Positions 18,973-20,569 of a DNA stretch of 37,672 nt are shown here, one piece after another. Within the stretch, counting starts at the first letter, position 1, and each line of letters begins with the position of its first letter. The stretch is taken from NCBI GenBank assembly GCA_024639505.1, contig JAHEIE010000010.1, positions 1 to 37,672 of the forward strand. Reading direction: 5' to 3'. Source of the stretch: Crocinitomicaceae bacterium (GTDB taxonomy: Bacteria; Bacteroidota; Bacteroidia; Flavobacteriales_D; CAJJDF01). Under the pieces are notes generated by a model. That model searched no databases. It worked only from the letters and a program-made list of their open reading frames with translations, and was not told where the DNA came from. The position numbers were made by a program, and so were the translations under genes.

Positions 18973-19007
18973 ATTCATTGTCATTCTTGCGAGGTCAGGA
19001 ATCTATA
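18973..19007 (+). repeat. REP-like palindromic repeat, copy B
   Basis: About 32 of 35 bases match copy A at 18030-18064, in the same orientation; the core reads ATTCTTGC-GAGG-TCAGGAAT. It starts just after the methyltransferase stop. Confidence 0.8.
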
Positions 19008-19031
19008 ATACGAGAATTAGCCTGATGAATA

Positions 19032-19053
19032 GGATTCCGGCCTTCGCAGGAAT
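19032..19053 (-). repeat. REP-like palindromic repeat, copy C, inverted
   Basis: Read on the minus strand it gives GATTCCTGCGAAGGCCGGAA, matching the core of copy A in opposite orientation. Copies B and C face each other and could fold together as one larger hairpin between two convergent genes, where it would also act as a transcription barrier. Confidence 0.75.
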
Positions 19054-19059
19054 CACAAA

Positions 19060-19518: not shown

Positions 19519-19569
19519 TTTATTTGAAAAAAGTATTGGTTTGATAAGTAGGGCTTTAAGATTTTTTTC

Positions 19570-19628
19570 AACGTATGGTGTATGTGGCGTTGCCAGCTTT
19601 TGCTGGCTATGAACACATACACATTGTT
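19570..19628 (-). repeat. attC-like recombination hairpin
   Basis: Read on the minus strand, the 59-base unit begins AAC (end of GCATAAC) and ends GTT (start of GTTGAAA). It contains a perfect 9-bp arm pair GTGTATGTG/CACATACAC, an unpaired spacer, and a central GCCAGC-AAAA-GCTGGC hairpin. This order, with AAC and GTT at the outer ends, is the plan of an integron attC site and falls within the known attC length range. It lies immediately after the esterase stop, where a cassette's attC belongs. The core bases deviate from the strict RYYYAAC/GTTRRRY consensus by one position each. Confidence 0.5.
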
Positions 19629-19643
19629 ATGCACTTTTATTCT

Positions 19644-20540
19644 TTATCTCAGTCCATTTATGTCATAACGTGATACAAAATTCCAGACCAATTCAGAAGC
19701 ATTTTGACCTTGAAAGGTTGAATTAAACCAAACGTGGTCTCCTCCGATATATTTGTAATGTTCAACGGAAACTAAGCTGTCTCCTTGGTCATATATATAA
19801 TGTTCAATTGTCATTCCTCCGTTATTGTCGCTGCTTACAGTTGGGTTTGTAGTCGTGTTATTGAAATTCATCCAATGGTCTAATGTACTTTGCGCAGAGT
19901 TCCAGCCACTTCCACCATTATAGGGCAGAACGCCATCAGAGGTTCCGTGAAGATGAACTACTGGCATTGGATGACTTGTTGGTCCAGTACAATCTAACAT
20001 AACACCTGAAACAGAGGCTACCGCAGCAATTAAATCACTTTTATAGTTAGCAAGTCCATATGCCATCATACCACCGTTTGAGTATCCAGCAGCATAAATT
20101 CTTTCCATATCAATGTTATATTGCGATGAAATCTCATTAATCATTGATTCAACAAAACCAAAATCATCAGCATTACTTTTATTGTCTCCTCCCGATGGAC
20201 AAGCATTCCAATGAGAAGAACCATCTGAACAACTACCTTGGGGATAGATTAAAATAAAAGTGTCAGCTTCTGCCAATGAGCGCATATCTGCTTCTTGCAT
20301 ATAATCTCTTGCACTACCACCAAACCCATGAAAATTTAACATTAATGGAACAGCAGATGTCCCATCATAGGAGTTAGGTATATACAATACATACTCTCTA
20401 TTGATACCGTCATGAACTAAGGTTTGTGCATTAGTATTCGAATAGCAACTCTCTGAATTGTTATTATCATCTTTTTTACAACTACCAATGGTTATTGATA
20501 GGAGAACAAAAAACAAAATTGAATTTTTAGTCTTAATCAT
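19644..20540 (-). CDS. Lipoprotein esterase, PHB-depolymerase/feruloyl-esterase type (LpqC-like)
   Basis: 298 aa with a lipoprotein signal peptide: a hydrophobic stretch ending ITIGSC with lipidated Cys21, then a Lys/Asp/Asn-rich linker. The rest is an alpha/beta hydrolase of the poly(3-hydroxybutyrate) depolymerase / carbohydrate esterase 1-like family. The oxyanion region is HGFGGSARDY (71-80), the nucleophile Ser154 is in GYSNGGMM, the likely acid is Asp202 in LHGTSDGVLPYNG, and the His is His269 in GGDHVWF. It would act at the cell surface or periplasmic face on an ester of a polymer or plant glycan. It is enclosed by an 11-bp inverted repeat and followed by an attC-like hairpin, so it may be a mobile cassette. 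Confidence 0.88.
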   Translation of the reverse strand: MIKTKNSILFFVLLSITIGSCKKDDNNNSESCYSNTNAQTLVHDGINREYVLYIPNSYDGTSAVPLMLNFHGFGGSARDYMQEADMRSLAEADTFILIYPQGSCSDGSSHWNACPSGGDNKSNADDFGFVESMINEISSQYNIDMERIYAAGYSNGGMMAYGLANYKSDLIAAVASVSGVMLDCTGPTSHPMPVVHLHGTSDGVLPYNGGSGWNSAQSTLDHWMNFNNTTTNPTVSSDNNGGMTIEHYIYDQGDSLVSVEHYKYIGGDHVWFNSTFQGQNASELVWNFVSRYDINGLR

Positions 20541-20558
20541 ATCGCCTCTTTTTTAATT

Positions 20559-20569
20559 GTGCATAACAA
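20559..20569 (-). repeat. Upstream boundary core (TTGTTATGCAC) of esterase cassette
   Basis: The 11 bases are the exact inverted copy of 19624-19634 on the other side of the esterase gene. In a gene cassette this would be the GTT-containing crossover core at the 5' junction, with the start codon 19 bases downstream. Confidence 0.5.

Follow-up and report, generated by a model that had tools for sequence, protein, structure and literature searches.

An esterase gene framed as an integron-type cassette points to a probable integron system of Bacteroidota with a recombinase that has no IntI additional domain

The additional domain has been described as one that only IntI has and that IntI needs (Messier and Roy 2001, as cited in PMC9668308), and as required for activity (PMC8138268). 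Integron surveys take this domain as their mark, and by such surveys Bacteroidota are nearly integron-free (PMC9024848), although a complete integron of Salinibacter ruber and an In0 have already been reported from Bacteroidetes (PMC9024848). In Treponema, transcription of intI runs in the direction of attI and the cassettes (PMC3607928), and in archaea attI lies immediately downstream of intI (PMC9668308). A G follows AAC in most attC sites, matching the C before GTT (PMC2727003), and insertion at secondary sites of the attG type has been described (Loot et al. 2024, as cited in PMC12444791). In Riemerella anatipestifer, a 2026 paper described insertion without homology for aph(3')-IVb, lnu(H), and blaRATA, with a 140-bp attC-like 3' end, and left the mechanism open (PMC13148043). 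A “xerD” gene next to tet(X3) has been recorded without explanation (PMC7473080, PMC7494873).

We analyzed a stretch of 37,672 nucleotides from a Crocinitomicaceae bacterium (assembly GCA_024639505.1, contig JAHEIE010000010.1, positions 1 to 37,672), hereafter the window. A gene on its minus strand (19644..20540) encodes a lipoprotein esterase of 298 aa that belongs to the extracellular short-chain PHA depolymerase type 1 family (NF050058, 170.9 bits against a cut-off of 150; Pfam Esterase_PHB also matches). An earlier note, made from the sequence alone, had claimed that this gene is enclosed by an exact 11-bp inverted repeat and followed by a 59-base unit from AAC to GTT with paired arms, an unpaired spacer, and a central hairpin. 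Both elements were found as described. TTGTTATGCAC occupies 19624-19634, and GTGCATAACAA at 20559-20569 is its exact reverse complement, with no further exact copies in the window; the unit spans exactly 59 nt from AAC (19570-19572) to GTT (19626-19628). By a rough estimate, an exact inverted pair of 11 bp this near to both gene ends (within about 60 nt) has a chance of 0.3%.

Read along the gene, the hairpin lies at the 3' end and a GTT core at the 5' edge, as in a cassette. The predicted inserted unit is 995 bp long (19572..20566, minus strand), running from 20566, the T of G^TTATGCAC, to 19572, the G of the 3' core ..CATACG^TT. Its 5' core, the R'-type box GTTATGCAC (20559..20567, minus strand), has its expected cut between 20567 and 20566 on the same strand and is exactly complementary, in reverse, to the R'' box at the cassette's own 3' end. 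The attC-type recombination site (19566..19634, minus strand) consists of the 59 nt plus the outer core bases and was located by a structure finder and a covariance model. On the minus strand it comprises the R'' box GTGCATAAC (19626..19634), which fits RYYYAAC bar one base; a 3-nt spacer (19623-19625); the L'' arm GTGTATGTG (19614..19622); the central hairpin GCCAGC-AAAA-GCTGGC as variable terminal structure (19592..19607; GCCAGC-TTTT-GCTGGC on the plus strand); the L' arm CACATACAC (19578..19586); a 5-nt spacer (19573-19577); and the R' core GTTGAAA (19566..19572), preceded by C. Both arms were assigned from the fold, and on the plus strand they read GTGTATGTG at 19578-19586 and CACATACAC at 19614-19622, with spacers of 5 nt (GTATG) and 3 nt (ATT). 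Since the TT of the R' core and the bases that follow it are host sequence, we classify the junction as a secondary-site, attG-like one. Each core departs from RYYYAAC/GTTRRRY at one base, as the earlier note had pointed out.

The fold of this site is significant. As single-stranded DNA, the plus strand reaches -16.3 kcal/mol (z = -5.1, with none of 200 shuffles as good) and the minus strand -14.1 kcal/mol (z = -3.4); the better-folding plus strand is the bottom strand of the cassette, on which an attC is expected to fold better. When both strands of the whole 37.7-kb window were searched with a structure-only finder (TAAC, 1-4 nt, and a paired arm, followed by the second arm, 4-8 nt, and GTT), the site was the sole match. 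A covariance model of related sites (R1) also recovers it at 46.9 bits, a score that is not independent, as the site is itself among the 13 training rows; the structure-only finder is independent of that model. An Rfam scan of the region returned no relevant family. A BLASTN search with the hairpin against the genome that holds the window returned no further copy, as sites of this kind have structure and not sequence in common. The site has the R''/R' boxes with G^TT, the L''/L' arms, the unpaired spacers, and the covarying arms of an attC, bar one core base per side.

The distribution of the esterase argues for horizontal spread with exact edges. Of the homologues in the 40 nearest sampled genomes, the best (81% identity) belongs to another family, whereas the best in the genus itself reaches only about 41%, to be compared with 81-91% in other families. 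A scan of named genomes yielded 80 esterase loci at 63-91% identity in genomes labelled Flavobacteriaceae, Crocinitomicaceae, Saprospiraceae, Salinivirgaceae, and Cytophagales, as well as in metagenome-assembled genomes labelled Ignavibacteriales, Verrucomicrobia, and Neomarinimicrobiota, for which binning errors are possible. Of the 80 loci, 25 retain the 5' edge TTATGCACAA with at most one mismatch, 18 the 3' edge GTGCATAAC, and 14 both edges. In BLAST alignments, nucleotide similarity to the window begins at 20566/20567 in four loci (L046, L063, L041, L061) and stops at 19617-19625 in many. What follows the common gene end differs: it is the 59-nt site in the window, a site of about 131 nt of the AATGTATATAAAAAATAGGCG type in five loci (L038, L040, L044, L047, L050), and the GGCTATACG attC type in L063. 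It follows from these swapped attC types that either the gene recombined with different site types or the sites diverged under structural constraint. In five loci (L037, L044, L056, L060, L063), another site adjoins the esterase on the same strand, forming an array. Some of the 80 loci lack the cassette edges, and the gene has therefore also been inherited outside cassettes. In six Flavobacteriaceae loci (L045, L052, L055, L059, L061, L064), the cassette start TTATGCACAATAA comes directly after a hairpin AACGGTTATACT..AGTGTAACCGTTTTTT and no attC is left; these seem to represent a cassette that has turned into a fixed chromosomal gene. In L055, the sequence ahead of the cassette start resembles the end of a tRNA gene.

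The genome that holds the window carries further sites of this kind. Near the end of contig C58 (19013-19704), one strand bears a long site (E = 8.6e-22) and a short one; the small lipoprotein gene that separates them has the exact complements GTTATCTGT and ACAGATAAC at its ends, and no integrase accompanies this two-site array (L277). A third candidate site lies on contig C67 (5079-5147, E = 4e-4), and another genome of the genus (G017) has eight sites, one of them with perfectly matching cores around a single gene. The neighbors of the window cassette, DinB and a response regulator, are ordinary-looking chromosomal genes. A comparison with near relatives returned no clean empty site: the DinB orthologue in G017 has another upstream gene, in G037 the contig breaks off within DinB, and for the response regulator the genus offers no clear ortholog. 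Elsewhere in the window, between a methyltransferase gene and DinB (18978-19057), lies a palindromic repeat of about 80 bp that recurs many times, on both strands, in two genomes of the genus (G037 and G042). We class this palindrome as REP-like and not as a site of the cassette kind.

Arrays of such sites are headed by a tyrosine recombinase. In one complete genome (G002), the recombinase gene (L124, 11379-12524) is followed by a same-strand series of attC-like sites that are separated by single genes. Around 50 loci of such recombinases, sampled from the order and the phylum, the finder located 51 downstream sense sites in 435 kb, 5 downstream antisense sites, and 10 sites upstream (305 kb, both strands), compared with 4 sites in 380 kb around 20 XerC/XerD control loci. 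A C precedes GTT in 54 of the 56 array sites, a feature outside the search pattern, whereas the TAAC present in all 56 was imposed by the search. Arm covariation among 13 related sites was 0.628, against 0.178 in shuffled alignments (0/500), and two-sided changes occurred in 14 of 15 pairs among 20 long sites. Arm cells were paired in 86% of cases compared with 60% in shuffles, a percentage inflated by a finder and alignments that favor pairing sites, a preference by which the sense/antisense bias and the core matches are unaffected. Moreover, for adjacent sites less than 3.5 kb apart, and counting at least four of five outer bases as a match, the opening core is the reverse complement of the closing R'' box in 22 of 33 cassettes; 2.8 are expected from shuffles, and the maximum in any of 2000 shuffles was 10. 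Such a mutual core match marks units that have a circular form, and the same feature flanks the window esterase.

The family is widespread. A covariance model of the long sites (E <= 0.001) has matches in 85 of 148 Bacteroidota genomes and 56 of 83 genera, often several per contig on one strand, and only one strong match in 397 kb of the 20 Xer control loci; a fixed pattern, GGCAACGCC..CGTT, was too narrow and matched only three genomes. The cassette plan proposed in the earlier note (GTT core at the 5' edge, one gene, folded site at the 3' edge) is thus borne out by the edges, the spread, and the arrays in other genomes. The same hairpin plan is seen beside many other genes, in arrays, including in the same genome, and across dozens of genomes the surroundings of the gene differ and similarity ends where the edges were predicted, so that flanks shared by all relatives, which the note had named as a sign against a cassette, are not what is found. 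The note had further suggested a lone cassette with no integrase present, or a related but distinct recombination system in Bacteroidota. Genome-wide, no such integrase was recognized and only two Xer-like genes match (97.5% complete, 119 contigs), and therefore the window copy is best classed as a lone, SALIN/attG-type cassette; given this incompleteness, an integrase could be missing from the assembly. The second suggestion, a distinct system, is supported by the array-head recombinase, in which the IntI-specific domain is absent.

This recombinase (about 275-400 aa) is transcribed towards the array. When 199 genomes of the order were searched with the integron-integrase profile TIGR02249, none held a protein above the IntI cut-off; the array integrases reach 202-234 bits, compared with a cut-off of 265. 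Matches below the cut-off are found everywhere because the profile also responds to Xer genes, and these matches led us to the group without the IntI-specific stretch: across the 199 genomes, many tyrosine recombinases match the profile on either side of a gap. The interval between the GLR and LRH motifs is 93-98 aa in 50 Bacteroidota enzymes, 99-100 in Xer, and 135 in IntI1 and one chromosomal-type IntI, which served as the IntI references (IntI2 records were dropped, as their open frame stops early). Alignment to the Vibrio integrase structure 2a3v places the gap in the same region, so that about 40 residues are missing where IntI has its additional domain. As far as its sequence anatomy goes, the Bacteroidota system is an integron, yet its enzyme falls outside IntI.

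The stop codon of the recombinase is immediately followed by an attI-like site with GTT at its end. Three genomes of a single genus (G053, G098, G086) have a nearly identical attI stretch, and their sequences diverge right after GTT into different first cassettes; G029 and G056 likewise diverge right after the attI-like GTT. The contigs of G081 and G060 end at this GTT or one base beyond, as would be expected of an assembly broken by a repeated junction. Some recombinases of the group head no array: the finder located no downstream sites at L142, L193-L197, L199, L201, L206, L212, L216, L218, L219, and L221, nor at L252 and L253, which are associated with IS91. At these last two, the gene next downstream of the domain-less recombinase is a transposase with an IS91-family annotation, and at L131 and L132 the recombinase is followed by a frame that looks similar to this transposase. 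This IS91-associated group has several copies in G180, occurs on Tenacibaculum and Myroides plasmids, and has no attC arrays.

The same system appears, from its junctions, to have carried tet(X3). Plasmid relatives of the array-head enzyme at about 49-50% identity include the Acinetobacter “xerD” that adjoins tet(X3), and this “xerD” falls inside the clade of array-head recombinases in our tree. tet(X3) has exact cassette edges both in Acinetobacter (L250, NZ_CP096121.1, 6001-8178) and on a plasmid of Empedobacter brevis (L287, NZ_CP043635.1, 560-2065). In the former, it follows an attI-like stretch ending ..CCACTTG^TTATGTGCC, and in the latter, what precedes it is the right-hand half of a different attC, with the end ..CCCCGAAACG^TTATGTGCC; these upstream sequences diverge at G^TT. 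Behind the Empedobacter gene, a complete attC is recovered by the R2 model (E = 3e-15), with another upstream (2e-10), while the attC in Acinetobacter is cut by a res/ISVsa3 junction. On a second E. brevis plasmid (L288, NZ_CP043636.1, 3484-5157), arr and lnu(H) each have a Bacteroidota-type attC behind them and form an array with the matching cores GTTAGCGGT/ACCGCTAAC, and a phosphotransferase gene on an E. stercoris plasmid (L290, NZ_CP104212.1, 3694-4119) is also followed by a Bacteroidota-type attC.

Taking the window and the comparative data together, we consider it highly probable that the esterase is an integron-type cassette that travelled in circular form and integrated at a GTT of the chromosome, away from integrons, with a Bacteroidota integrase most likely responsible. 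In such a scheme, the ends GTTATGCAC and GTGCATAAC would pair in the excised circle and rebuild a complete attC, whose bottom strand would fold into a hairpin with an unpaired spacer, to be cut at G^TT by a tyrosine recombinase. The likely enzyme would be an integron-type integrase of about 275-400 aa without the additional domain and with attI behind its stop codon, and the window copy would have been inserted in trans at a secondary GTT of the attG type. We infer, in particular, that the array-head enzyme performs the reaction on single-stranded attC and that the window copy arose through such in-trans insertion. Because the literature describes the additional domain as required for activity, the Bacteroidota enzyme would then have to work somewhat differently.

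The simplest route for the window copy is insertion at a secondary GTT, and array decay is the alternative: the esterase could be the remnant of a former array that lost its integrase and other cassettes. The second pair of sites on C58 and the lack of a recognized integrase in the genome fit such decay, but DinB and the response regulator look like ordinary chromosomal flanks and no second site lies nearby, so we regard decay as possible but doubtful. That the hairpin is a mere transcription terminator or the palindrome of a repeat element, with the 11-bp inverted repeat arising by chance, we find scarcely credible: although a stable hairpin does lie directly behind the gene and the genus has several other palindromic repeats, the edges are common to many unrelated loci with differing flanks, and the 3-nt/5-nt spacer asymmetry, the C before GTT (54/56), and the core complementarity are not terminator features. 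Sites of pdif type are 28-bp XerC/XerD sites that flank both ends in inverted orientation; in place of such dif-like ends, the window has 11-bp ends and an asymmetric 59-nt hairpin at one end. Together with one folded site per gene, tandem arrays in one orientation, an attI, and units without a transposase, this makes it very improbable that the cassette is a pdif/Xer module or a hairpin-ended derivative of an IS200/IS605 or IS91/HUH single-strand transposon, even though Bacteroidota IS91-family elements have their own tyrosine recombinase, placed near the array clade in the tree.

The responsible enzyme might also be a different one. If the sites were integron-like but the cassettes were moved by housekeeping XerC/XerD or by a true IntI in trans, the domain-less recombinase would be a passenger. 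IntI is the only enzyme with demonstrated attC activity, its additional domain is reported as essential (PMC8138268, PMC9668308), and the window's genome has Xer-like genes only. Against this, no genome of the order (0/199) exceeds the IntI cut-off although several hold arrays, the sites are enriched only downstream and in sense of the domain-less recombinases and not around Xer genes, and the attI-like junctions lie directly behind these recombinases. We therefore judge a passenger role unlikely. Returning to the Bacteroidota integrase, we think it likely that the phylum has its own widespread class of integrons, run by an Xer/XerA-like recombinase in which the IntI additional domain was either never present or has been lost, and overlooked by methods that look for this domain; that this class spreads single genes across phyla in aquatic bacteria; and that it was the vehicle that mobilized tet(X3) and probably arr and lnu(H).

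Judged by the open-access literature in PubMed Central, the system is so far poorly recognized. More than half of the 148 sampled Bacteroidota genomes hold a coherent family of attC-like sites, and the arrays are headed by an enzyme without the domain. If the enzyme works as proposed, the IntI domain would be dispensable for cassette recombination, and a large gene-exchange system would have been undercounted.

The system shares with class 1 integrons and the Vibrio superintegron one gene with a 3' attC, the G^TT cut, RYYYAAC/GTTRRRY boxes, unpaired spacers, the C before GTT, the pairing of the 5' core with the cassette's own R'', and arrays in one orientation. It differs from them in an integrase without the additional domain, transcribed towards the array and with attI behind its stop codon, and in the arms and consensus of its attC sites. 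As in CALIN/SALIN and attG insertion, the cassette in the window stands alone, outside an integron, at a site of the chromosome that contains GTT; here, however, the proposed donor is the Bacteroidota system with its domain-less enzyme, and the window site is only a candidate for recent mobility. Transcription of the recombinase towards the array recalls Treponema, and the position of attI just behind the gene recalls the archaeal integrons, but the Treponema genes are classed as IntI and archaeal IntI have the additional domain, which the Bacteroidota enzyme lacks. The S. ruber integron and the In0 came from searches with the IntI profile, whereas this system lies below its cut-off (0/199 genomes). 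The Riemerella unit, from a host in Weeksellaceae, is close in plan (a 27-bp 5' UTR, the gene, and a 140-bp 3' stretch that folds like an attC), but no integron was found there and the recombinase and attI proposed here were not named (PMC13148043). Finally, the “xerD” beside tet(X3) in Acinetobacter falls in the array-head clade, whereas it was given as a XerD gene of unknown role and not as an integron integrase (PMC7494873, PMC7473080). The system described here thus offers candidate answers to two questions in this literature, namely the role of the tet(X) “xerD” (PMC7473080) and the entry of hairpin-ended resistance genes into Riemerella (PMC13148043).
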